Shown one piece after another: positions 2,746-23,822 of a DNA stretch of 64,000 nucleotides. Source of the DNA: Clostridia bacterium (GTDB lineage: Bacteria > Bacillota > TC1 > UBA5767); assembly GCA_016887505.1 (NCBI GenBank), contig CP069393.1, positions 620,001-684,000 of the forward strand, given 5' to 3'. Under the pieces are notes generated by a model, which saw only the letters and a list, made by a program, of their open reading frames with translations, did not search any database and had not been told where the DNA came from. Both the position numbers and the translations under genes were made by a program. Positions within the stretch are counted from its first letter, which is position 1. Each line of letters begins with the position of its first letter.

Positions 2746-3516
2746 ATGGATAAGAGAATTGCGGTATTGATTGACGCAGACAATGTTTCGGAAAAGTATC
2801 TAAAGTATATTTTTGACGAGATATCCAACCATGGTACACCGACGTATAAAAGAATCTACGGGGACTGGACAAACCCTCATTTGGGATCATGGAAAAAACA
2901 ACTTTTGGATAACTCCATCACCCCAATCCAGCAATACAGCTATACTACGGGAAAAAATGCCACGGATGCAGCCCTCATCATTGATGCGATGGATATTTTA
3001 TATTCCGGTAATATTGAAGGATTCTGCATCGTGTCCAGTGATAGTGATTTCACAAAATTAGCAGCAAGACTTCGTGAATCAGGAATGCTGGTTATTGGTA
3101 TGGGAGAGAAAAAGACGCCAAAGCCCTTTATTGCCTCTTGTGAGAAGTTTAAATATCTCGAAGTATTAGCAGGTATGGACAAGGACGAGGAAAAAGAAGT
3201 TTCTGAAAGCAATGCAAAGGGGAGCAAAAAGAGCTCAACTAGTAAGACGAATGGTAGTAGTGAACCAAATATCATGAGCAGGCGCCGCCTGATCCAGGTT
3301 GTAAAAAATATTGTGACTGAGATTTCAGATGAAGATGGATGGGCAAACTTATCTGAAGTGGGCAACATTCTAAACAAACGTTATCCTGACTTTGATACTA
3401 GGAATTATGGACATGCTAAGCTTACACCACTTGTCGCTTCTTTGAATAAATTCAACATAAGCTCAAGACCCTCTAGCAATCCGAATATAAAGCTCAAGTT
3501 TATTAAGATAAAATAG
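2746..3516 (+). CDS. NYN-domain ribonuclease-like protein with OST-HTH/LOTUS domain
   Basis: This 256-residue protein has two parts. Residues 4-141 are an NYN (PIN-like, LabA/DUF88) domain with acidic metal-binding candidates D10 and D12 (LIDADN), D74, D80 (ALIIDAMD) and D99/D101 (SSDSDF). A Ser/Lys-rich linker (about 145-178) leads to an OST-HTH/LOTUS winged-helix domain at about 180-256, a fold known to bind RNA. Family knowledge suggests an RNA-processing nuclease; the substrate is unknown. AAGGAG precedes the ATG. The next gene follows after 8 bp, so they are probably cotranscribed, though glycerate metabolism gives no obvious link. Confidence 0.88.
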   Translation: MDKRIAVLIDADNVSEKYLKYIFDEISNHGTPTYKRIYGDWTNPHLGSWKKQLLDNSITPIQQYSYTTGKNATDAALIIDAMDILYSGNIEGFCIVSSDSDFTKLAARLRESGMLVIGMGEKKTPKPFIASCEKFKYLEVLAGMDKDEEKEVSESNAKGSKKSSTSKTNGSSEPNIMSRRRLIQVVKNIVTEISDEDGWANLSEVGNILNKRYPDFDTRNYGHAKLTPLVASLNKFNISSRPSSNPNIKLKFIKIK

Positions 3517-9267: not shown

Positions 9268-10431
9268 CTACTGCTCGACGTAGTTCTGGTTGCTAGACAA
9301 TAGTTTAAAGATGACCCGGATCAGCTTTTTAGTTGTATGAGACAGAGCGACATAGTGATGTTTGCCTTCAGAACGTTTCTTCTTATAGTACTCTTTGAAG
9401 GTCGCATCTCGCATCACAATCAACCTGGCGGCTTGCAAGAGGGCCCAGCGCAAGTAAGGGGATCCTCGCTTGACCATTCTGGTTTGAGTCGCTGTGAACT
9501 TGCCAGACTGATGTGTGGATGGATCCAACCCTGCGAAGGCAAGCAGCTTAGCGGGAGATTCAAACCTGGTGATGTCTCCGATTTCCGAGAGGATGACAGC
9601 TGCCAACCGATGGGAAATGCCAGGTATGCTGAGCAAGGGAGAATTCAGTTCACCAACAAGCTGTTCAATTATTTGATCCAGCTCTTTAATCTCGTTCTGC
9701 AGGTTTTGTATCAAGTGAATGGTTTGCTTAAGTTCATAGGATAAAGATGGTGAACATGTGCCAATAGATGTTCTGGCAGAATCACGAATAGCTACAGCTT
9801 CTTCTTTTCCATAACGTCCATGGGAAGCTTTACTAAGGACATGAGTAAGCTTGGTTAGGTGAGCATCGGCAATTTCTCGAGTGTTAGGAAAAGCCAGTAG
9901 GAGCTGATAGACAGAAGCCTGATGGATAGACCAGACCAAGGCTGGGAGCTCCGGGAAAACGATATCTAACAATCTAGTGATGGACATTTTGTAAGAAGCT
10001 CTGGTTTTGACAAGACGCGATCGGTGTCTAGAAAGTGACTTGAGCTCTCTATGGTGGTAAGATACAGGTGAGTGGGATTTGAAGTCACCTGTTCTGAGCA
10101 TCATAGTAATGGTTTTTGCATCAACCGAATCTGTTTTGGTCTTTCTAAGCGTTTGAGCTTTTCTGAAAAGACTGGTTTGCAGAGGATTGAGAATAATCAC
10201 GGGAAGATTGTTTTCTGTCAGGAAGTTGATGAGATTATTGCTGTAATGTCCAGTGGCTTCAAGTCCTATTAGTATTTGCGAGTGACTCACGTCAGGAATG
10301 GTTTGCAGTAATAGGTTGAAACCCTGGCGAGAGTTTTTGAAGGTGAATACGTTATGGATGATTTCACCCTCCGAATCAACAATAAAGCAGTCATGTTTAT
10401 TCTTGGCGACATCGATACCAACATAGATCAT
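9268..10431 (-). CDS. IS110-family transposase (DEDD type)
   Basis: The 387-residue recombinase has the RuvC-like N-terminal domain with D7 (GIDVAKNKHD), E58 (GLEATGHY), D101 and D104 (KTDSVDAKT). The C-terminal Tnp2 region contains SIPGISHRLAAVILSEIGD and KRGSPYLRWAL, where the catalytic serine is expected. Length is normal and no frameshift is visible. It lies between the dinB promoter and the extradiol-dioxygenase-like gene, both of which keep intact promoters. IS110 elements leave no clear inverted repeats, so exact ends are not assigned. Confidence 0.95.
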   Translation of the reverse strand: MIYVGIDVAKNKHDCFIVDSEGEIIHNVFTFKNSRQGFNLLLQTIPDVSHSQILIGLEATGHYSNNLINFLTENNLPVIILNPLQTSLFRKAQTLRKTKTDSVDAKTITMMLRTGDFKSHSPVSYHHRELKSLSRHRSRLVKTRASYKMSITRLLDIVFPELPALVWSIHQASVYQLLLAFPNTREIADAHLTKLTHVLSKASHGRYGKEEAVAIRDSARTSIGTCSPSLSYELKQTIHLIQNLQNEIKELDQIIEQLVGELNSPLLSIPGISHRLAAVILSEIGDITRFESPAKLLAFAGLDPSTHQSGKFTATQTRMVKRGSPYLRWALLQAARLIVMRDATFKEYYKKKRSEGKHHYVALSHTTKKLIRVIFKLLSSNQNYVEQ

Positions 10432-13083: not shown

Positions 13084-14247
13084 ATGGATATGTTGTATCA
13101 AGTAATGCACGAATTTCCAGAACCGACATTGCTAGAGCAGAATGATATCATGATATCACTTTATCAACCTACGCACAGACACGCGCCGGAAAATAGGGGA
13201 GATTTGGTCATGTTTGGCAATTTGCTTCGTGATATTGAATCAATCCTAAAAAAGAAAATCAGCTCAGAAGAGTTAGAGAAGCGTCTGAGACCATTCCGAC
13301 AGTTGCTAGAAGACAGAGAATTTTGGAATACGACATTAGATGGATTAGCAGTGCTTTCTTCTTCTGAAAAATGCTATGTTTACAAGTTGGCTGATAGCAT
13401 GGCTGCAAGAATAGACGTTGCTAAAAGTCTTAACCTAAGACCTCTAATCCGCTATTTCCAAACAGCAGACCGTTTTCAAATCTTGGGTATTGGATTGGAT
13501 GGATTTGCTATCTTTGAAGGAAATCGGTACCAAATTAGTGAGTTGCCCTTGGATGAGGATATTCCTGTAACTATGGATCAAGTATTAGGAGAAGAACATA
13601 CTGAGAGTTACCTTGCACATGGCTCCTATGGGGGTGGTGGCGAATCTGCTATGTTCCATGGGCACGGGGCAAAAAAAGATGATAAGGATCAGGATATCGA
13701 GCGGTATTTCCGTTATATAGATGCCCTGATTAAAGAAAAATATAGTCGCGAGTCTGGATTGCCACTTATACTTTTATCCCATAAGGAACAAAGTGGTGCC
13801 TTTAGAAAAATTAGCACTAATAATCTATTAATTTCTGAGGGGATAAGAGGGCACTACCAGGATCTTTCAATAGAACAAATAAAGGATTTAGCTTGGAAGG
13901 CAATGTACCCTGCTTACCAAAAGCGTCTAGATATGATGCTTGATGATTATTTCAAAGCACAAAAGAAAGAATTAGCAACAGACAATTTGGTCGATATAGC
14001 CCAAGCTACTTTAGAAGGAAATGTCGATATTTTGTTTTTAGAGGAAAAAGCAAATTTCCTCGGAATATGGGATGAAGAAACGGGAGAAATTTTGCAAAAT
14101 GAGTTGAATCATTTAGAAGAATCAGATGTACTGAATGATTTGGCAACAGCAGTATTAAAACGAAAAGGGAGGGTAGTCATACTTGCAAGTGAACGAATTC
14201 CAGGCAAAGATGGGGTAGCCGCACGACTACGACATGAATTACCATAA
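13084..14247 (+). CDS. Bacterial archaeo-eukaryotic release factor-like protein (baeRF family 3)
   Basis: The 387-residue protein resembles the baeRF family, bacterial relatives of archaeal/eukaryotic peptide chain release factor 1. Features are an N-terminal ISLYQPTHR segment, a central LAVLSSSEKCYVYKL, an internal Gly/His-rich stretch (residues about 180-200, GHGAKKDD) and a C-terminal VDILFLEEKANFLGIWDEE. Family knowledge proposes ribosome-associated roles in stress or stalled translation, mostly untested. It is monocistronic, with its own promoter upstream and a strong terminator at 14271. Confidence 0.75.
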   Translation: MDMLYQVMHEFPEPTLLEQNDIMISLYQPTHRHAPENRGDLVMFGNLLRDIESILKKKISSEELEKRLRPFRQLLEDREFWNTTLDGLAVLSSSEKCYVYKLADSMAARIDVAKSLNLRPLIRYFQTADRFQILGIGLDGFAIFEGNRYQISELPLDEDIPVTMDQVLGEEHTESYLAHGSYGGGGESAMFHGHGAKKDDKDQDIERYFRYIDALIKEKYSRESGLPLILLSHKEQSGAFRKISTNNLLISEGIRGHYQDLSIEQIKDLAWKAMYPAYQKRLDMMLDDYFKAQKKELATDNLVDIAQATLEGNVDILFLEEKANFLGIWDEETGEILQNELNHLEESDVLNDLATAVLKRKGRVVILASERIPGKDGVAARLRHELP

Positions 14248-14319: not shown

Positions 14320-14579
14320 GAATTTGAATGAACAGGGTATTGGGTATAAAAGGATAGCATTCTTTTTAACTATGCAACAGGTGTTACATGAAAAAGAGGG
14401 ACATAAAAGAAGATAAACGTATATATCTGTTATTTGAAAGAAATAAATGACTGAAACAAAAGAAATTTCCTGAATATCAAAAAAAAAGGTGGAAAGTTTC
14501 CTCTAAATATAGCAAAATAGTAAATATAAATGTAAACGTTTACAAAAGAATTAAGTGAGCATAAAAAGGGGGGAGTAGA
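14320..14579. other. Intergenic region upstream of the nucleoside importer
   Basis: AT-rich sequence with no supported gene. It contains the 14-bp palindrome at 14531-14544 and the GGGGGGAG ribosome binding site of the next gene. No clear -35/-10 pair was found. Confidence 0.5.
14531..14544. promoter_or_regulatory. LacI-family operator, importer copy
   Basis: TGTAAACGTTTACA is a perfect 14-bp palindrome with the central CG typical of LacI/CcpA-family operators. It shares TGTAA-N4-TTACA with two sites near lacI (21743-21756, 21834-21847). It could also be a CcpA cre site. Confidence 0.72.
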
Positions 14580-16103
14580 TTGAACGTAATCGAGCTGAAC
14601 AATATTTGTAAAGCTTTCGGTAGCAACAAAGCAAACCACAATGTTTGTTTCAATCTTAAAAAAGGAGAAATCCACGCCTTGCTTGGTGAGAACGGAGCAG
14701 GAAAGAGCACACTTATGAACATCCTGTATGGCTTATATAGTTGTGATTCTGGGAATATCATGATCAATGGTGAATTGGTCGATGTTGAAAATCCTAGCAA
14801 AGCAATTGCGCACGGAGTAGGTATGGTTCACCAACACTTTATGTTGGTACCACAACTCAGTGTTACCCAAAACATATTTTTGGGTATGAAAGAAACAGGA
14901 TTGTTTCTTAAGATGGATGAGCTTAAAAAGAGAGTATCGGACTTGAATGAAAGTTTTGGCTTCAATGTTGATCCATCTGCTTTTATATGGCAACTGCCAG
15001 TAGGGGTGCAACAGAAGGTGGAAATTTTGAAAGCTCTAATGCGAGATGCAAAAATTCTTATTCTGGATGAACCGACTGCTGTTTTAACACCAAATGAAGT
15101 AGAAGAACTGTTTGCGTCAATTAAGAAATTAACAGATAGCGGTTATTCAATCATTCTAATTACGCACAAGATGGAAGAAGTATTAGATTATTGCGACCGT
15201 GTAACCATCATGCGTGAAGGTAAGGTTGTCGATACAATAAACGTATCTGAAGCAGATCAAGATATTCTGGCGAAAGCCATGGTAGGACGTGATGTTTGTC
15301 TTGATCGCATCATAGAAGACCAAGAGCCAGGAGAAGTTCTCCTGAAGCTAAATGAAATAACCGTTTTAAATGATAAAAAATTACCGGCTGTAAATAACCT
15401 TAGCTTGGAAGTAGCAAGAGGTGAAATCTTAGGAATAGCCGGTGTCGATGGGAATGGCCAGTTGGAATTGGGTGAGGCTATCGTAGGGCTTAGAAAGATT
15501 GAACATGGCAGTATGAGCCTACTCAATCAAGATACCACCAATGCTGTACCGAGAACCATGATGGATTTAGGTATGGCACACATACCGGATGACCGGCATA
15601 AAAAGGGATTGGTGCTAGACTTTTCGATTAAGGAAAACCTAATACTGGGTTCTCAAAGAGATAAAAAGTATCGAAGTGGAATGATGATGAACTATGGTAC
15701 GGTAAAAGATGAAGCAGAACGTCTAGTGGAAGAATTCGACGTTCGTCCTCGTAATATTGAATTAACGGGTGGAATGCTTTCAGGTGGCAACCAGCAAAAA
15801 GTTATCTTGGCAAGGGAAGTATCTAGAAACCCAGAGGTACTGATTGCGTTGCAACCGACCCGAGGTTTAGATATTGGTGCGATTGAATTTGTACGAGGAA
15901 AAATTATCGAAGAAAGAAAGAATAATAAAGCAATCCTTTTGGTTTCTACGGATTTAGATGAAATTCTTACTTTAAGTGATCGTATTGCCATTATGTATAA
16001 AGGTGAAATAATCGGCATTGTATCTCCGGATACCCCTGTTGAAGAAATTGGTCTTCTTATGGGTGGTATCAAGGATAAGAAAGCAAAAGGAGGGGTGGCA
16101 TAA
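14580..16103 (+). CDS. Nucleoside ABC importer, ATP-binding protein (BMP-type)
   Basis: The 507-residue protein carries two fused ABC domains, as in sugar and nucleoside importers. The first has Walker A GENGAGKST and Walker B ILILDEPTAVLTP. The second has a degenerate Walker A-like GVDGNGQLELGEA, signature LSGGNQQKVILAREV and the LQPTRGLDIGAIEFV segment that marks the nucleoside (NupO/YufO) group. It starts at TTG (14580) behind GGGGGGAG. Two permeases and a lipoprotein follow with 1-50 bp spacing, forming a complete importer. The palindrome at 14531 suggests LacI-family control. Confidence 0.95.
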   Translation: MNVIELNNICKAFGSNKANHNVCFNLKKGEIHALLGENGAGKSTLMNILYGLYSCDSGNIMINGELVDVENPSKAIAHGVGMVHQHFMLVPQLSVTQNIFLGMKETGLFLKMDELKKRVSDLNESFGFNVDPSAFIWQLPVGVQQKVEILKALMRDAKILILDEPTAVLTPNEVEELFASIKKLTDSGYSIILITHKMEEVLDYCDRVTIMREGKVVDTINVSEADQDILAKAMVGRDVCLDRIIEDQEPGEVLLKLNEITVLNDKKLPAVNNLSLEVARGEILGIAGVDGNGQLELGEAIVGLRKIEHGSMSLLNQDTTNAVPRTMMDLGMAHIPDDRHKKGLVLDFSIKENLILGSQRDKKYRSGMMMNYGTVKDEAERLVEEFDVRPRNIELTGGMLSGGNQQKVILAREVSRNPEVLIALQPTRGLDIGAIEFVRGKIIEERKNNKAILLVSTDLDEILTLSDRIAIMYKGEIIGIVSPDTPVEEIGLLMGGIKDKKAKGGVA

Positions 16104-17170
16104 TGAAAGATAGATTGAAACTTCTGATTCACCCTGCGATTGCTATCGCAATATCCTTAGCCATTGGTGCTTTAATTCTTTTAGTAGCAGGTTATGATGT
16201 GGGCAAAGCATTCCTAGCTATTTGGAATGCGTCATTCAGAAATTTGAGAACCATAACGACTACATTCAATAAATCTTCACCATTGTTGTATGTAGGTTTG
16301 GCTGTGGCGATATCCTTTAGAGGCAATGTATTCAATATTGGAGCGGAAGGTCAGCTTCTCATGGGAGCCGTATTTGCAACCTTCGTGGGACTTTATTTAC
16401 AATTTCTTCCTGGCTTTTTATTGATCGCCTTGATGCTGCTAGCGGGTTGTGTAGGCGGTGCATTGTGGGCCTTTATTCCTGGCTATCTGAAAGCTAAATA
16501 TGATGTAAGTGAAGTTATAACCACCATTATGTTTAACTATATTGCACTCAATTTCATTGGGTATTTGGTCCGTGGACCTATTCGAGATACTAGCCAAGCA
16601 GAACCACAGACTGTTGCGATTGCCAAACAAGGATTTCTTCCCTCATTAATTCCTGGTACGCCATTACATTTAGGGTATTTATTAGGTATTATCTTGGCTA
16701 TTGGTTTGTTCTATCTTCTATTTAAAACCTATATTGGGTATGAAGTAAGGGCAGTTGGCCTTAACAAGAGTGCGGCAAAGGTCGCAGGTATTAATGTTCA
16801 AAAAACCATCGTTGGTACCATGCTTATATCTGGCGCATTGGCTGGTTTGGGCGGAGCGATAGAATTGGCCAATATTCACTACTTATTAGAAGGAATTTCT
16901 CCAGGATATGGCTTTACTGGTATTGCAATCGCGGTTTTGGCAAATTCCAACCCAATTGGGGTAATATTCAGTTCATTCTTGTTTGGTTTTTTAAATGCAG
17001 GAGCTACTTCCATGCAACGATCTGCTGGTGTATCTGCTTCATTTGTACAAATTTTCCAAGGTATTATGATTATTGCTATTGCCTTGGCTAGCGTGAATAA
17101 AACAAAACTTACTAAAAAAATAAAGAAAACGCTAAGCCAGGATACGACAAAAACTAGGGAGGTGGAGTAA
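16103..17170 (+). CDS. Nucleoside ABC importer, permease 1
   Basis: This 355-residue inner-membrane permease of the BPD_transp_2 class has about ten hydrophobic helices. Family-typical segments are RGNVFNIGAEGQLLMGA, the NYIALNFIGYLVRGP region and VRAVGLNKSAAKVAGINV, the cytoplasmic coupling loop contacting the ATPase. The C-terminus is a Lys-rich tail. It overlaps the ATPase stop by one base and precedes the second permease by 2 bp. Confidence 0.94.
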   Translation: MKDRLKLLIHPAIAIAISLAIGALILLVAGYDVGKAFLAIWNASFRNLRTITTTFNKSSPLLYVGLAVAISFRGNVFNIGAEGQLLMGAVFATFVGLYLQFLPGFLLIALMLLAGCVGGALWAFIPGYLKAKYDVSEVITTIMFNYIALNFIGYLVRGPIRDTSQAEPQTVAIAKQGFLPSLIPGTPLHLGYLLGIILAIGLFYLLFKTYIGYEVRAVGLNKSAAKVAGINVQKTIVGTMLISGALAGLGGAIELANIHYLLEGISPGYGFTGIAIAVLANSNPIGVIFSSFLFGFLNAGATSMQRSAGVSASFVQIFQGIMIIAIALASVNKTKLTKKIKKTLSQDTTKTREVE

Positions 17171-17172
17171 AC

Positions 17173-18108
17173 ATGTCAGAATTGCAATTTATAAATTTTC
17201 TTGCTTCTTCTGTACGCATGGCCACGCCACTATTATTGGCTTCTCTAGGGCTAGTAATTTCAGAACGATCAGGATTGATTAATATTGGTGTAGAAGGTAT
17301 CATGCTTATGGCTGCTTTTGCTGGATATGCTGGTTCTAAGCTAGCAGGAGGCTATTGGTATGGATTGATTGTCGCCATTTTGGTTTCAATGGTCATTATA
17401 TCAATATTTGCCGTCACCACAATTAAGTATAAGTCACAGCAGGTCATCATTGGTGCAGCACTGAACATGTTTTGCGCAGGGCTCAGTAGTTTCTTGTATC
17501 GGTTAATATTCTACAATACGGGACGTTTTGATGAAGGTATTGCCGCAGCAAGCTTTCCGAATGTTAGTATACCGGTACTGTCAAAAATACCCATATTGGG
17601 ACCAGTATTTTTCAACCATAACTTATTGGTCTATTTCTCATACATAATGGTGATTGTCTTATGGATTGTAATCAACAAGACTTCGATAGGACTCAAAGTA
17701 ATTGCAGCAGGTGAACATCCTAAAGCGGCGGAAAGCTTGGGCATAAATGTAATTCACGTCAGATATTTGGCAACCTTATTTTCAGGTGTCATGATGGGTG
17801 TCGCCGGTGCATATCTATCAATTGCACAAGCTTCATCATTTGGTGAGGATATGACCTCAGGACGTGGCTTTATCGCCATGGCTGTCGTTATTTTAGGAAA
17901 ATGGAGCCCAATCGGATCCATGTTCGGTGCGCTTTTCTTCGGAGCAGCGACTGCTTTGCAACTCATGTTTCAAATTACTGGTGTGGAAATACCAAGAAAT
18001 GTAATCATGATGATACCCTATATTGCAACAGTAATAGCGGTGTTGGCAGTGAGTCAGAACAAAGTAGGGGCGCCGAGTGCCTTGGGTGTACCGTACGAAA
18101 AATCCTGA
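17173..18108 (+). CDS. Nucleoside ABC importer, permease 2
   Basis: This 311-residue paralogue of the first permease has SERSGLINIGVEGIMLMAAF near the N-terminus and the coupling loop VIAAGEHPKAAESLGINV. The two permeases presumably form a heterodimeric channel. AGGGAGGTGG in the end of the previous gene supplies the ribosome binding site. The lipoprotein gene starts 49 bp later. Confidence 0.94.
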   Translation: MSELQFINFLASSVRMATPLLLASLGLVISERSGLINIGVEGIMLMAAFAGYAGSKLAGGYWYGLIVAILVSMVIISIFAVTTIKYKSQQVIIGAALNMFCAGLSSFLYRLIFYNTGRFDEGIAAASFPNVSIPVLSKIPILGPVFFNHNLLVYFSYIMVIVLWIVINKTSIGLKVIAAGEHPKAAESLGINVIHVRYLATLFSGVMMGVAGAYLSIAQASSFGEDMTSGRGFIAMAVVILGKWSPIGSMFGALFFGAATALQLMFQITGVEIPRNVIMMIPYIATVIAVLAVSQNKVGAPSALGVPYEKS

Positions 18109-18157: not shown

Positions 18158-19168
18158 ATGAAGAAAGTATTTGCAGTACTATTGGTAGTGATGATGCTTG
18201 CCTCTGTTGTAGGTTGTGCCGGTGGCGATGAAGGTGCAGTTAGGGTTACAGAACCGGAAGATTTGAAAATGGCTACATTGCTTCCATCTTCACCGACTGA
18301 CGGTGGTTGGGGACAAACTGGTGCTAATGCCATCAACGCAGCAAAAGAATATTTTGGCTGTGAAGCTGTTATCGTAGAAGCTGGAACCGCGGATCTTATG
18401 AAATCGGAAGCTGTTTCTTTAGCTGAAGAAGGTTTCAATATTATCATTGGTCATGGTGGTCAGTATGCAGCTCCGTTTGCAGAAATTTCTGCTGACTATC
18501 CCAACACATATTTCTTTACCGCTGGTGGAGATATTGTAACGGAAAACCAAATGCCTGTAGAATTCATGGTTGAAGAATTAACCTACATCATGGGTGCAAT
18601 GGCAGCAAACATTTCAGAAACTGGTGTTGTTGGCCTTACTGTGGGTGGAGAATATCCTTCCTACACCAAAACGTCTAGAGGTTTTGAACTAGGCGCTAAA
18701 GCAACTGATCCTGATATTGAAATATTGTATGCTGCAACCCAAGACTCAAGTGATATGAACGAAGCGTATGAAATTGCAATGGCTCAGATTGATGCCGGCG
18801 CAGATATCATTTGGACCAATGCCAACCAATCTTCTTTGGGTTCAATTCAAGCAGCCAAAGAACGTGGCGTTTATGTTTTCGGAATGGTTCAAGACCAAAA
18901 AGCGGAAGCTCCTGACTTGGTAATTGCTTCTGTAGTACAAGACTTTAATGGTTTTGCTATTGCAATTGGCGAAAGATACCTTAATGATTCTCTAAACGGA
19001 GAAACCATCAAGATCAGAGCCGGAGTAGACGATGAGAGCTTATACTGGGCTTGGAATGACGCTGTAAAAGATACTCTTCCGGAAGATGTAGTTGGATTGT
19101 ATGATGAATTGCTTCCTAAGATTCAAAGTGGAGAAATCTATGTACCAAGTGAAACCGAAGGCTGGTGA
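18158..19168 (+). CDS. BMP-family nucleoside-binding lipoprotein
   Basis: This 336-residue extracellular substrate-binding lipoprotein of the BMP/PnrA/Med family serves the importer encoded upstream. A signal peptide with lipobox VVGC puts the lipid-modified Cys at position 20. Binding-protein features are LPSSPTDGGWGQTGANA, IIIGHGGQYAAPFAEI and the late FGMVQDQKAEAPDLVIASVVQD. Family knowledge gives purine or pyrimidine nucleosides as ligands; the nearby deoC and deoxynucleotidase-like gene fit that. The operon ends in a strong terminator at 19198. A diverged copy of this domain forms the C-terminus of the next gene. Confidence 0.95.
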   Translation: MKKVFAVLLVVMMLASVVGCAGGDEGAVRVTEPEDLKMATLLPSSPTDGGWGQTGANAINAAKEYFGCEAVIVEAGTADLMKSEAVSLAEEGFNIIIGHGGQYAAPFAEISADYPNTYFFTAGGDIVTENQMPVEFMVEELTYIMGAMAANISETGVVGLTVGGEYPSYTKTSRGFELGAKATDPDIEILYAATQDSSDMNEAYEIAMAQIDAGADIIWTNANQSSLGSIQAAKERGVYVFGMVQDQKAEAPDLVIASVVQDFNGFAIAIGERYLNDSLNGETIKIRAGVDDESLYWAWNDAVKDTLPEDVVGLYDELLPKIQSGEIYVPSETEGW

Positions 19169-19197
19169 TTCTAGATAAACACCATAAGTAAAACAGG

Positions 19198-19226
19198 GGA
19201 CCCGAACAATGTTCGGGTCCTTTATT
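19198..19226 (+). terminator. Terminator of the nucleoside importer operon
   Basis: A 10-bp perfect stem GGACCCGAAC / GTTCGGGTCC with loop AAT is followed by TTTATT. Confidence 0.92.
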
Positions 19227-19273
19227 GTATATAACTTTATTCTGTGGAAATCTTTCATAGTGGACTTATAAAA

Positions 19274-19282
19274 TGGTATAAT
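19274..19282 (+). promoter_or_regulatory. Extended -10 promoter of the J-like/BMP fusion gene
   Basis: TGGTATAAT is a perfect extended -10. A weak TTCATA lies 17 bp further upstream. The gene thus has its own promoter, separate from the importer. Confidence 0.65.
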
Positions 19283-19312: not shown

Positions 19313-20638
19313 ATGGACCGTTATCATTTCATAGACTACTACAAAGTCCTGAGTGTAGAACGAAATGCTTCAAAACAGGAAATTGAAGAATCTTACAAAT
19401 TGCTAGCCTTTCGTTATAAGATGAAGGATATTTTGCCAGAAGCCACGGATGCAGATCAGAGAAAAGAACTGATTGATAAAGCGTATACTATCCTAATTGA
19501 TTCCAAAAAGAAAAAAGAATATGATGCAATATATGATGATGTATACGGAAGATTAAAGAATCAAGAAACAGAAATACCAAAAATTAGAAGACGCAAGAGC
19601 CCCCAACATTTGAAAAGCATAATTGCCTTTGTAATGATAAGTATGGTGTTGGTATTATCCTTTATTGCAGTGAATGGCATTGATAAAGAAACCGAACAAG
19701 AAGACCCTAGCACAATTTTAGCAGGTGATGATGGAGTCTTTAAAGTAGCCCTTCTCGTTCCCAGTACTATTACCGATGGTGGATGGTCAGAATCAGCATA
19801 TCAAGGGCTCTTACAGATTGAAAGGGAATTGAATGCCCAAGTTATTTATACGGAAGTGGTCAGCAAAGAAGAAATTATTGAGAAGGCCAATCAATATGGG
19901 CAAGAAAACTATGATTTGATTATTGGTCATGGATACCAATATTCTGAACCCTTTAAGGATATTTCTCCTAAATACAAAGATAGTATTTATATTACCAATG
20001 GCGGAAAGTACATCAACAATAATTTGACAGCCATAGAATTCGAATTGGAAAAAGTTAGCTATATTGCAGGAGCTGTAGCTGCTAAGCTAACAAACACCAA
20101 TATTTTAGGTTGCATCGGTGGAGAGAATATACCTTCCGTATCCAAGACCTTCCTTGGATTTAAGCTGGGCGCCAAAAGCATTAATCCAGATATACAGGTA
20201 AGTATCAGCTATATTGGAAGTTGGAATGATCCAAGAGCAGGATATGAAGAAGCACTAAGAATGATTCGAACTGGAGCTGATGTTTTGTATGGAAATGCAA
20301 ATGCTACAGGTTTAGGCGTGATTCAGGCTGCTGATGAAAATCAAGTCTACGTATTTGGTCAGGATTCCGACCAATCAGCCTATTCGCCAGATTATCTAGT
20401 AGCTTCCATGTTTCAGGATACGCCCAATACATATATGATGGTGGCAAGGAGTATTTCAGAAAATAGGTTTGATAATGGGGAACGAATTGTAGTGGGTTTT
20501 GAGGATGAATACGTCAAGCTACTTTGGAATAATAATGTAAAACAAAATTTACCAGAAAGTGTATTGGCTATAGAGCAGGCCATAAAGGAAGAGTTTATTA
20601 CTGGTAATTTAGAAATCCCTGGTGAAAAGGATATGTAA
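19313..20638 (+). CDS. Membrane protein: degenerate J-like domain, one TM helix, BMP-type binding domain
   Basis: The 441-residue protein has an unusual domain order. Residues 8-80 match a DnaJ J domain (DYYKVLSVERNASKQEIEES, then a helix ending KKKEYD), but the HPD loop is replaced by KMK (36-38). A basic stretch (RRRK, 92-95) precedes one transmembrane helix (about 102-121). Residues 143-441 form a BMP-family binding domain with LLVPSTITDGGWSESAYQG and IIGHGYQYSEPF, clearly related to the lipoprotein encoded just upstream. The positive-inside rule places the J-like part in the cytoplasm and the binding domain outside. I infer a nucleoside sensor or receptor. Without HPD, canonical DnaK stimulation is unlikely. 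It has its own promoter and terminator. Confidence 0.9.
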   Translation: MDRYHFIDYYKVLSVERNASKQEIEESYKLLAFRYKMKDILPEATDADQRKELIDKAYTILIDSKKKKEYDAIYDDVYGRLKNQETEIPKIRRRKSPQHLKSIIAFVMISMVLVLSFIAVNGIDKETEQEDPSTILAGDDGVFKVALLVPSTITDGGWSESAYQGLLQIERELNAQVIYTEVVSKEEIIEKANQYGQENYDLIIGHGYQYSEPFKDISPKYKDSIYITNGGKYINNNLTAIEFELEKVSYIAGAVAAKLTNTNILGCIGGENIPSVSKTFLGFKLGAKSINPDIQVSISYIGSWNDPRAGYEEALRMIRTGADVLYGNANATGLGVIQAADENQVYVFGQDSDQSAYSPDYLVASMFQDTPNTYMMVARSISENRFDNGERIVVGFEDEYVKLLWNNNVKQNLPESVLAIEQAIKEEFITGNLEIPGEKDM

Positions 20639-20642
20639 AATA

Positions 20643-20669
20643 AAAAAAGTCGCTAATGCGGCTTTTTTT
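20643..20669. terminator. Terminator between J-BMP gene and lacI, usable in both directions
   Basis: An A-run, stem around AGTCGC/GCGGCT with loop TAAT (one G-U pair), then seven T. The final T-run touches the stop codon of the convergent lacI gene. Confidence 0.75.
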
Positions 20670-21678
20670 AACAGGATTCTCTTACAATAAGGGTTGGTGG
20701 AAGGTAGATTCTTTGGGGTGGCAGATTGGGGTTAGAAATTTTATTCAAAAGAATTCGAGCTGCCGTTTTACCTAAGTCTTCAGTAGGTACTTTTATACTG
20801 GTAAGGGATGGGCTAAAATATTTAGAAAAAGAAATATCATCACTGCCTATGATGGCAAAGTCTTTGGGAATCCGATAACCCTTATCTAGTATCGCTCTGC
20901 TGATACCAATGGCAATTAAGTCGTTGATACACAAAAAGACTCGCGGTAGTTTTTGACCAGATTGCAAAAGGTTCGTCATCAACCGATAGGACTCATCAAT
21001 AGTATCGAATGAACTTTCATAGATCCATTCATCTTTTAAGTTTAAATCAAAGTCAGATAGAAGTTCTCTTATATATTTTAACTTATGCCTTGTAATTTCT
21101 ATATGATGTCCTCCATGGATAATACCGATATCGGTGTAACCTCTTTTTTTAAGATGTTCAAATGTAAGCCAAATACCAGTACGTTCATCAACCAAGACGC
21201 TGTCTAATTCCTTAATATCAGGATTGGGGTTGATACATACCATTGGTTTGGTTAAATTTGGGATACCTGGTATAAAATGTGAGTTCATAAATAGAGTACC
21301 CGCTACAATCATTCCATCAAAAAAGCCTTCATTACCAAGGTCATCGATAACTTTGAAAAGCTGATCAGGGTCGTTTAGATGCTGATTCACATTATGGGCA
21401 TGCAAATAATAACCATATTCAGTAAACACAGATTCGGCTCCCTTGACTAACTCAAAGAAAAACGGATTCACCAGGTTTGGAATGATCATTACAATATTGT
21501 TGGTGCGTCCAGGAGAGGCCAAATTGCGAGCGAATGGATTTAAACTGTATTGGTTATCATCAATAATGCGCATAACCCGTTCCAAGGTATCTTTTTTTAC
21601 TTTTTCAGGGTTGTTCAGAGCCCGTGAGACAGTGGCGGTGGAAACGCCTGCCTGCTTGGCGATGTCTTTTATATTCAT
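20668..21678 (-). CDS. LacI-family transcriptional regulator
   Basis: The 336-residue repressor has an N-terminal LacI helix-turn-helix and hinge (MNIKDIAKQAGVSTATVSRALNNP, residues 1-24 and on to about 60), followed by a periplasmic-binding-protein-like effector domain. AAAGGA precedes the ATG. TGTAA-N4-TTACA palindromes in its upstream region (21743, 21834) and before the nucleoside importer (14531) are the likely targets. A nucleoside or deoxyribose-derived effector is inferred from neighbours only. An extended -10 TGTTACAAT lies on the minus strand at 21715-21707. Confidence 0.93.
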   Translation of the reverse strand: MNIKDIAKQAGVSTATVSRALNNPEKVKKDTLERVMRIIDDNQYSLNPFARNLASPGRTNNIVMIIPNLVNPFFFELVKGAESVFTEYGYYLHAHNVNQHLNDPDQLFKVIDDLGNEGFFDGMIVAGTLFMNSHFIPGIPNLTKPMVCINPNPDIKELDSVLVDERTGIWLTFEHLKKRGYTDIGIIHGGHHIEITRHKLKYIRELLSDFDLNLKDEWIYESSFDTIDESYRLMTNLLQSGQKLPRVFLCINDLIAIGISRAILDKGYRIPKDFAIIGSDDISFSKYFSPSLTSIKVPTEDLGKTAARILLNKISNPNLPPQRIYLPPTLIVRESC

Positions 21679-21742: not shown

Positions 21743-21756
21743 TGTAAAGGGTTACA
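21743..21756. promoter_or_regulatory. LacI-family operator, lacI-proximal copy
   Basis: TGTAAAGGGTTACA shares the arms TGTAA and TTACA with the sites at 14531 and 21834. It lies about 30 bp upstream of the lacI -10. Confidence 0.6.
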
Positions 21757-21833: not shown

Positions 21834-21847
21834 TGTAATTAGTTACA
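21834..21847. promoter_or_regulatory. LacI-family operator, flavoprotein-proximal copy
   Basis: TGTAATTAGTTACA has the same arms and spacing as the two other sites and lies 24 bp before the ATG of the flavoprotein gene. Repressor bound there could block transcription start or elongation. Confidence 0.6.
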
Positions 21848-22485: not shown

Positions 22486-22489
22486 GATG

Positions 22490-22516
22490 AAGGAGCTTCG
22501 GCTCCTTTTATTTTTG
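22490..22516 (+). terminator. Terminator after flavoprotein gene
   Basis: Stem AAGGAGC / GCTCCTT with a stable TTCG tetraloop, followed by a T-rich tract. Confidence 0.9.
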
Positions 22517-22575: not shown

Positions 22576-23151
22576 ATGAAAATGAAAAAACTTAAGATTG
22601 GTATTGATTTAGATGGTGTGGTGTTTCGCACCCTAGACAAAGTACTTGAAAGATACAACGAGGATAAGGGAACAGAATACGTATCTGACCAAATTAAGGA
22701 TTGGAATACTCATGAATGGATGGAGGGGGATGCTAGTGTCTATGACTATTTTTGTGATCCCAAAACATTCATAGACCTACCCATTAACGAAAATGCAATC
22801 GAGGTACTTTATCGTTTGGATAAAAAGCATGATGTATACATTGTGACAGATACACATTATCATTGTTTGGATACACGAATGAATGAACTGTTTAGAATCT
22901 TCCCAAAAGAAAAATTTTCTTTTATGGAACATAGAAAGATTTTTATTGGAAAGTTTAAGGAAATGCTTATGCTGGATGTACTCTTAGACGATAAGCCAGA
23001 AAATGTTATGCATTTTAATAACAGGGGATATGGCAAGGCCATCATGTATGATTGGGTACTCAATCGATATGTAAAGGATGTAGACCGAGTTTACAGTTGG
23101 TTGGAGTTTGAAAAGAGAATCGAAGAGATGGAAAAGCAAGAAAGAAGTTAG
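22576..23151 (+). CDS. 5'(3')-deoxyribonucleotidase-like HAD phosphatase (NT5C type)
   Basis: This 191-residue protein belongs to the HAD superfamily, close to the NT5C deoxyribonucleotidase group that dephosphorylates deoxynucleoside monophosphates. The catalytic DxD motif is D11-L-D13 (IGIDLDGVVF). Motif II is near VYIVTDTHY and the acidic motif IV is VLLDDKPEN. AAAGG precedes the ATG. Convergent deoC shares the terminator at 23135-23168, and both point to (deoxy)nucleoside salvage. Exact substrate specificity cannot be read from the sequence. Confidence 0.8.
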   Translation: MKMKKLKIGIDLDGVVFRTLDKVLERYNEDKGTEYVSDQIKDWNTHEWMEGDASVYDYFCDPKTFIDLPINENAIEVLYRLDKKHDVYIVTDTHYHCLDTRMNELFRIFPKEKFSFMEHRKIFIGKFKEMLMLDVLLDDKPENVMHFNNRGYGKAIMYDWVLNRYVKDVDRVYSWLEFEKRIEEMEKQERS

Positions 23152-23168
23152 TTAACTTCTTTCTTGCT
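23135..23168. terminator. Bidirectional terminator inside the overlapping 3' ends of two genes
   Basis: A 16-bp perfect inverted repeat (23135-23150 with 23153-23168) with a 2-bp centre covers both stop codons. The T/C-rich flank on the right side serves the plus strand. It encodes the last residues of both proteins. Confidence 0.8.
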
Positions 23169-23822
23169 TTCTTTTATAATTGCAACACTTGCACTAGCGC
23201 CAATCCGAGTAGCTCCAGCTTCAATCATGGCAAGGGTATCGCCTAGAGTACGAATACCTCCAGATGCTTTAACACCAAGATTCGGCCCTACCGTATCGCG
23301 CATCAGCTTAACATGATGCGTAGTCGCACCGGCACTAGAAAATCCTGTTGAAGTTTTAACAAAATCAGCTCCAGCCTGCATGGACATCTGGCAAGCCTTA
23401 ATAATTTGTTCATCTGTTAGCAGACAGGTTTCTAAAATAACCTTTAGTGTGATTTTTTGGCCACAAGCTTTTTTCACTTCTAATATTTCTTGCTTTAATT
23501 TATCCCATTTGCCATCCAATGCATACGATACATTGATGACCATATCTACTTCCTCAGCCCCCATTGTGACTGCATCTTTGGCTTCAAAGACTTTTGCTTT
23601 CGTGCTCATAGAGCCTAAGGGAAAGCCGATTACTGTGCATACAGCTGTATCACTTCCAGCTAGAATATCTTTTGCCAGGGGGATGTGACATGGGTTAATA
23701 CACACGGAAATAAAATTATACTCCAGTGCCTGGGCGCACAATTCACGAATCTGTGCTTCCGTAGTCTGTGGTTTAAGAGCTGTGTGATCAAAATAACGAT
23801 TTAAAGACTCAATCTTTAACAT
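23148..23822 (-). CDS. deoC: Deoxyribose-phosphate aldolase
   Basis: The 224-residue DeoC cleaves 2-deoxyribose 5-phosphate into glyceraldehyde 3-phosphate and acetaldehyde, the end of deoxynucleoside breakdown. The TIM-barrel catalytic residues are visible: D93 in EEVDMVINV, Schiff-base K156 in ADFVKTSTGF, and the lysine in GVKASGGIRT. The start at 23822 follows AAGGGG; a longer frame from 23873 would extend into the upstream gene. It overlaps the end of the 23816-24523 gene by 7 bp, so it is the last gene of a three-gene minus-strand operon. Phosphopentomutase and phosphorylase genes are not in the window. Confidence 0.96.
   Translation of the reverse strand: MLKIESLNRYFDHTALKPQTTEAQIRELCAQALEYNFISVCINPCHIPLAKDILAGSDTAVCTVIGFPLGSMSTKAKVFEAKDAVTMGAEEVDMVINVSYALDGKWDKLKQEILEVKKACGQKITLKVILETCLLTDEQIIKACQMSMQAGADFVKTSTGFSSAGATTHHVKLMRDTVGPNLGVKASGGIRTLGDTLAMIEAGATRIGASASVAIIKESKKEVN

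Follow-up and report, generated by a model that had tools for sequence, protein, structure and literature searches.

The reading frame at positions 19313-20638 of the window (the whole 64,000-nucleotide stretch that was analysed, positions 620,001 to 684,000 of Clostridia bacterium contig CP069393.1; all coordinates below are those of the window, and features lie on the plus strand unless stated otherwise) begins with ATG and encodes 441 amino acid residues, in which a DnaJ-like domain is joined across one membrane helix to a solute-binding domain of the BMP family. Is this join genuine, where did it come from, and what might the resulting protein, which we call J-BMP, do with a J-like domain inside the cell and a binding domain outside?

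The join is genuine. The 441-codon frame is uninterrupted in a source genome consisting of a single 2.56-Mb contig, and orthologues of 441 residues, full length and 72% and 64% identical to it, are present in both other genomes of the genus that we examined, one of them on the public MAG contig DAOUPV010000036.1. Gene order is the same in all three genomes: ABC ATPase, two permeases, BMP lipoprotein, and J-BMP, followed by a convergent lacI gene and by FMN-reductase-like and NT5C-like genes. A search for the same architecture and neighbours, as proposed in an earlier note on this DNA, recovered the same fusion in the same place in all three genomes. The note had also conceded that two separate proteins, joined here by a frameshift or assembly error, would undo its reading; as the same frame recurs uninterrupted in three separate genomes, including the single-contig genome and the public MAG contig, a frameshift, assembly, or annotation join is ruled out as the source of J-BMP, and the chance of an artefact is negligible.

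J-BMP consists of a J-like domain, one transmembrane (TM) helix, and an extracellular BMP/PnrA-type binding domain. Pfam places DnaJ on residues 8-71 (38.8 bits, cut-off 27.8) and Bmp on residues 144-429 (215.4 bits, cut-off 24.1), adds a weak Peripla_BP_4 match, and reports no other domain and none of ARC6 type. Specifically, i) the J-like domain spans residues 7-72 (19331-19528); ii) the end of helix IV and a juxtamembrane segment follow in residues 73-92 (19529-19588), where Y74, Y78, R80, and T86-P89 (TEIP, 86-89), near the membrane, are invariant in all three orthologues; iii) a single TM helix, predicted from hydropathy and charge bias in each orthologue to run N-in/C-out, covers residues 102-120 (19616-19672; residues 98-119 in the structural model); and iv) a two-lobe binding domain occupies residues 139-437 (19727-20623). 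Six lysines or arginines lie within the 15 residues preceding the TM helix, and one basic and five acidic residues come after it; by the positive-inside rule this places the J part in the cytoplasm and the BMP domain outside the cell. Residues 1-160 are free of cysteine in all three orthologues, hence there is no lipobox, and J-BMP is not a lipoprotein: by sequence and fold it belongs to PF02608, but it lacks the lipobox cysteine anchor that its sister-genus orthologue has.

Structure prediction agrees with this layout. AlphaFold2 modelling of the full-length protein (28 sequences) yields a confident two-lobe domain from residue 141 on, a TM helix, and a helical N-terminus of modest confidence (pLDDT mostly 43-77 in the J part); modelling of the N-terminus with 31 J sequences yields helices at residues 9-12, 21-39, 47-62, and 64-85, with pLDDT of about 90 within them, and these four helices, with II and III antiparallel, make up a J fold by AlphaFold2, Foldseek, and Pfam alike. 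Foldseek aligns this model with J domains in the PDB at probability 1.00, a target-normalised TM-score (TMt) of up to 0.86, and E of about 1e-3, which taken by itself is weak, owing to the small size of the domain; it aligns the outer domain with BmpD (TMt 0.86), PnrA, Lbp, AtzT, and the Med homologue 2hqb (TMt 0.78-0.87 overall), and a sequence search of the PDB agrees. The earlier note had read the protein as a cytoplasmic DnaJ-like part, a basic segment, a TM helix, and an outer BMP domain, had staked this reading on residues 1-90 resembling a J domain, and had proposed comparing the outer domain with PnrA. The outline holds by Pfam, charge bias, AlphaFold2, and Foldseek; residues 1-90 do resemble a J domain, and the outer domain matches BmpD/PnrA.

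As far as searched, J-BMP occurs in a single small genus of anaerobic bacteria. Searching 399 genomes of the phylum, including the ten obtained for the order, with a profile of residues 1-137 recovered only the three J-BMPs, at more than 220 bits, and the next-best matches were J proteins, mostly in frames of 300-430 residues, at 57 bits or less. When the full-length profile was run against 249 genomes, a sample drawn around a different centre and overlapping the first, no match outside the genus began before residue 87 (E up to 1e-55). The N-terminal profile matched nothing among viral contigs, and none of the eight plasmid matches listed for the full protein began before residue 70. About 15 BMP-family proteins are encoded in the source genome (G000:C1), including a tandem pair (C1:1237112 and C1:1238418), and other genomes of the order are rich in matches too (7-28 each, J proteins included).

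Confinement to one genus would suit a neutral fusion, in which the J segment does no work itself beyond providing a start and a signal anchor. Identity among the orthologues is 62-77% in the J domain, 70-77% in the BMP domain, and about 20% in the TM helix; dN is 0.15-0.28, 0.15-0.22, and 0.9-1.0 for the J domain, BMP domain, and TM region, respectively, with synonymous sites saturated. The TM helix and linkers thus drift while the J domain is conserved like the BMP domain, and the low dN of both points to purifying selection on both end domains. Equal dN in the two domains at saturated synonymous divergence, free change between them, and retention of the fusion in three species make a neutral fusion very unlikely. 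With only three orthologues, the conserved surfaces are not finely mappable.

Selection has very probably not preserved a DnaK co-chaperone. The HPD motif is absent from all three J-BMPs and present in 28 of 28 comparison J domains; residues 36-39 (19418-19429), at the HPD site, read KMKD, with KTKD and QTKN in the orthologues. Replacement of HPD by KMK at residues 36-38, as initially reported, is correct as to the loss of HPD but not as to a plain KMK, the alignment giving K36, an inserted M37, K38, and D39. Helix II (residues 22-35, 19376-19417, QEIEESYKLLAFRY) is acidic and hydrophobic, not basic, with a net charge of -1, -2, and -1 in the three J-BMPs versus +3.9 (sd 0.84) in the 28 comparison domains, and its L30 and F33, invariant in the three orthologues, occupy positions that are K and R in canonical J domains. 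At the positions of the basic residues through which E. coli DnaJ contacts DnaK (R22, K26, R27, K48, and K51; PMC8215388), the J-BMPs have E/E/D, K/Q/Q, L/L/L, E/T/E, and D/E/D, respectively. The J fold and its hydrophobic core are intact (alignment, AlphaFold2), and J-BMP accordingly classes as an HPD-less J-like (DNAJD-type) protein. An intact fold and core might suggest a genuine ligand-controlled membrane co-chaperone of DnaK that works without HPD, but four of the five contact residues (R22, R27, K48, and K51) are lost or reversed, the helix II charge has gone from about +4 to -1 or -2, and changes of H to Q or D to N in HPD abolish stimulation in every system tested (PMC8215388). We rejected this candidate on the HPD and contact residues and consider it extremely improbable; J-BMP presumably acts independently of Hsp70.

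Ordinary chaperone work is covered elsewhere in the cell, since the source genome encodes one DnaK and three HPD-bearing J proteins (DnaJ, CbpA-like, and TerB-J). Each genome of the genus has one DnaK and no genus-specific Hsp70 partner; the other PF00012 matches are short and partial, fall on frames of 343-374 residues, and look like MreB-type proteins. The DjlA-like TerB-J protein (G000:C1:311276), whose gene follows a BMP gene (C1:306821) at a distance of a few kb and adjoins an amidohydrolase-like gene, has orthologues in the two other genus genomes; we considered it as a possibly related system, but found no link, and its HPD is present. The same complement of one DnaK and three true J proteins would allow J-BMP to act as a pseudo-J at the membrane, pairing with one of these J proteins to regulate DnaK in response to a ligand outside. 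HPD-less J-like regulators of true J partners do exist, as PMC3806816 and PMC8605242 describe for Pam16 and Pam18, and Pam16/Tim16, like J-BMP, has an HPD-less J-like domain near a membrane; unlike J-BMP, it pairs with Pam18 in protein import and has no solute-binding domain. We found no dedicated J partner or Hsp70 either near the J-BMP locus or specific to the genus, and the J-like face is changed but not complementary in any obvious way, so that pairing of this kind seems distinctly unlikely. The conserved J fold with its re-made, partly hydrophobic face is most plausibly a surface on which another protein docks. The suggestion that the domain serves protein-protein contact and not DnaK activation is thus strongly supported as regards DnaK, whose contact residues are lost, while the contact itself we infer.

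The gene stands at the end of a BMP-type importer operon, which it closes: genes for an ABC importer ATPase with a TTG start (14580-16103, Pfam ABC_tran in two stretches), two permeases (16103-17170 and 17173-18108, both BPD_transp_2), and a BMP lipoprotein that is presumably the importer's solute-binding protein (18158-19168, Bmp 140 bits, lipobox VVGC) lie directly 5' of J-BMP in all three genus genomes. The lipoprotein gene was earlier placed 145 bp upstream; it is there, and the exact gap from its end at 19168 is 144 bases. Convergent to J-BMP on the minus strand is a gene for a LacI-family regulator (20668-21678, Pfam LacI and Peripla_BP_3), a neighbour kept in four genomes. The gene preceding the operon (13084-14247) matches baeRF families 3, 6, and 7 and also, with a score short of the cut-off, a model for a ribosome hibernation factor, and a gene of the same type also precedes the operon in locus L038. 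Transposase genes of the Mutator family (1168-2373) and the IS110 family (9268-10431) are present in the window; neither adjoins J-BMP.

J-BMP has a promoter of its own, as the earlier note had proposed. A TTCATA-17-TATAAT promoter with an extended -10 (TGGTATAAT, 19254-19282) precedes the gene, and ATGGTATAAT within it is invariant in the three genomes while the flanks diverge. Upstream of it, a terminator hairpin follows the lipoprotein gene (19195-19223), the hairpin being kept in three genomes with its sequence changed; downstream, an A-tract/GTCGC-TAAT-GCGGC/T-tract hairpin between J-BMP and the convergent lacI (20642-20669) is a probable bidirectional terminator. A perfect palindromic operator of LacI/PurR type, TGTAAACGTTTACA, lies before the importer operon (14531-14544), where it alone in the window matches TGNAANCGNTTNCA exactly, and is found in the same place in loci L038 and L096; a second, near-matching site, TGTAAAGGGTTACA, lies between lacI and the FMN-reductase gene (21743-21756), with counterparts in L038, L096, and L095 (the two sites being at 3206 and 10424 in L038 and 4476 and 11673 in L096, with one at 8645 in L095). 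Unlike the importer and lacI, the J-BMP promoter has no LacI-type operator that we could find. From consensus and conservation of the operators, then, the importer is probably under the control of the neighbouring LacI-family protein and J-BMP on its own, and the conserved, operator-free promoter and the flanking terminators support separate expression of J-BMP. Besides the operator at 21743, a second palindrome-like site, TGTAATTAGTTACA, is present at 21834-21847 between lacI and the FMN-reductase-like gene, and strong terminator-like hairpins occur at 22489-22508 and, with 17 pairs, at 23133-23170 between the convergent NT5C-like and deoC genes.

The BMP domain was earlier attributed to duplication of the upstream lipoprotein, but this is not borne out. 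When 44 BMP proteins were placed in a tree, the three J-BMPs clustered with a lipoprotein of the sister genus (support 100/92), the upstream lipoproteins formed a separate clade, and the next branch, weakly supported (80/49), was a binding protein from a different ABC operon, found in genome G001. J-BMP is 34% identical to its own upstream lipoprotein versus 45-46% identical to that sister-genus protein, and both tree and identity rule out a recent duplicate of the upstream lipoprotein; the split between J-BMP and its neighbour predates the genus. In the sister genus (G003, L011), the slot between the first BMP lipoprotein and the convergent lacI is filled by this lipoprotein, an ordinary one that has a lipobox but lacks a J domain. 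Since the J-BMP slot there holds the closest, J-less relative of J-BMP, the data are most simply explained if a J domain and TM helix took the place of the second binding protein's lipid anchor within this genus. One species of the genus has a further ABC operon, separate and complete (L094 3251-7949, G001:C43), that encodes a lipoprotein binding protein 45% identical to the BMP part of J-BMP, possibly its donor or an older paralogue.

What might the outer domain bind? With the binding-site residues of BmpA as reference (PMC13325309), the aromatic sandwich of Phe27 and Phe176 is kept as W158 and W304 (F in G002), and Asp24 and Asp225 are kept as D155 and D351; Ala200 corresponds to N328, and the ribose-binding Asp98 and Lys242 are not kept, with N229/G230 and Q368 in their places in all three J-BMPs. 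In the alignment, an NAN motif and W304 bring J-BMP closer to AtzT than to PnrA. The nearest NCBIfam BMP model is ABC_BMP_B6, a putative B6 importer binding protein, with 100.4 bits for J-BMP and 95.1 bits for the upstream lipoprotein against a cut-off of 400. Ligands of solved BMP-family members (PDB entries) are nucleosides, riboflavin, and, for AtzT, atrazine-related compounds. The nearby NT5C-like and DeoC genes fit nucleoside use, but "nucleoside-binding", the label first given to the domain, is not established, the sandwich being kept and the ribose Asp and Lys of PnrA/BmpA missing; a small aromatic ligand is likely.

We propose that J-BMP is a single-pass membrane receptor derived from the binding lipoprotein of an ABC importer, whose J-like domain binds a cytoplasmic partner, and give this reading about an even chance (roughly 0.5). 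The second of two binding lipoproteins encoded at the operon's end would, in the ancestor of the genus, have lost its lipid anchor and signal peptide and gained a cytoplasmic J domain and a TM helix instead. Its BMP domain would close, outside the cell, on a small solute of aromatic or heterocyclic type. In the cytoplasm, the J-like domain would no longer serve DnaK, and the acidic helix II face, where Leu30 and Phe33 replace Lys and Arg, might together with the conserved TEIP juxtamembrane segment form a protein-docking surface, for which the adjacent importer ATPase or a regulator of the operon would be candidate partners. A separate promoter without an operator would fit a detector made before the importer is induced. 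We wish to stress that ligand class, cytoplasmic partner, transmission across the membrane, and sensing itself are all inferred for J-BMP, and that two points speak against a receptor: with one TM helix and no domain recognisable as catalytic or dimerising, there is no known route for a signal, and J-BMP could still feed the importer as an ordinary, differently anchored binding protein. Indeed, it could be an accessory binding protein of the importer in which a TM anchor replaces lipid and the J-like domain is a cytoplasmic tether, perhaps on the ATPase, with no signalling at all. The position of the gene at the end of the importer operon, the plain lipoprotein binding protein orthologous to it in the same slot of the sister genus, the retained pocket residues, and the nearest named BMP and ATPase models, which are ABC-importer components, all suit such a protein; its own conserved promoter behind a terminator and free of the importer operator speaks against fixed co-expression, and a mere anchor needs no purifying selection on a J fold as strong as that on the binding domain, so that we think the accessory role somewhat unlikely.

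J-BMP is, most simply, a transporter binding protein caught soon after becoming transmembrane, the ancestral lipoprotein form persisting in the sister-genus slot, and it contains a bacterial J fold that remains under selection after losing its DnaK interface, tied to a small-molecule binding domain. More tentatively, it may found a new class of single-pass receptor in which an ABC-type binder senses a solute and an HPD-less J-like output, bypassing DnaK, uses protein contact to control the neighbouring importer or the regulator of that importer. If the J-like domain does turn out to be an output module, this would show that J folds can serve generally as docking parts for proteins in signalling receptors.

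Several known systems share parts of this design. PnrA, BmpA, BmpD, Lbp, and AtzT (PF02608) resemble residues 139-437 in fold, HMM match, aromatic sandwich, and an adjacent ABC importer operon; J-BMP differs from them in lacking a lipid anchor and Asp98 and Lys242, and in its added TM helix and cytoplasmic J-like domain. The class C membrane J proteins DjlA, DjlB, and DjlC likewise have a J fold that is tied to the inner membrane and faces the cytoplasm, but they work with DnaK or HscC (PMC8215388), whereas J-BMP is without HPD and the basic face. The second-best PDB sequence match of the outer domain is 2hqb, a homologue of Bacillus Med, a PnrA-like protein and positive regulator of comK (PMC12892991) that is reported to be cell-surface; unlike J-BMP, the solved protein has no J-like domain, and Med acts on competence. 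A literature search, which did not take in the prokaryote-wide J-domain survey (Barriot 2020), found neither J-BMP nor any other fusion of a J domain to a solute-binding protein. Closest in layout are ZipN/Ftn2 of cyanobacteria and ARC6 of chloroplasts, which like J-BMP have an N-terminal cytoplasmic J-like domain, one TM helix, and an extracytoplasmic C-terminal part; the J-like region of ZipN/ARC6 is needed for FtsZ binding, and ARC6 is classed as an Hsp70-independent J-like protein (PMC6391411). In ZipN, however, more than 500 residues separate the J-like domain from the TM helix, the outer part is no solute-binding protein, and the role is in division. Neither ZipN/ARC6 nor Med has the architecture of J-BMP, which is probably a kind of receptor not described before.
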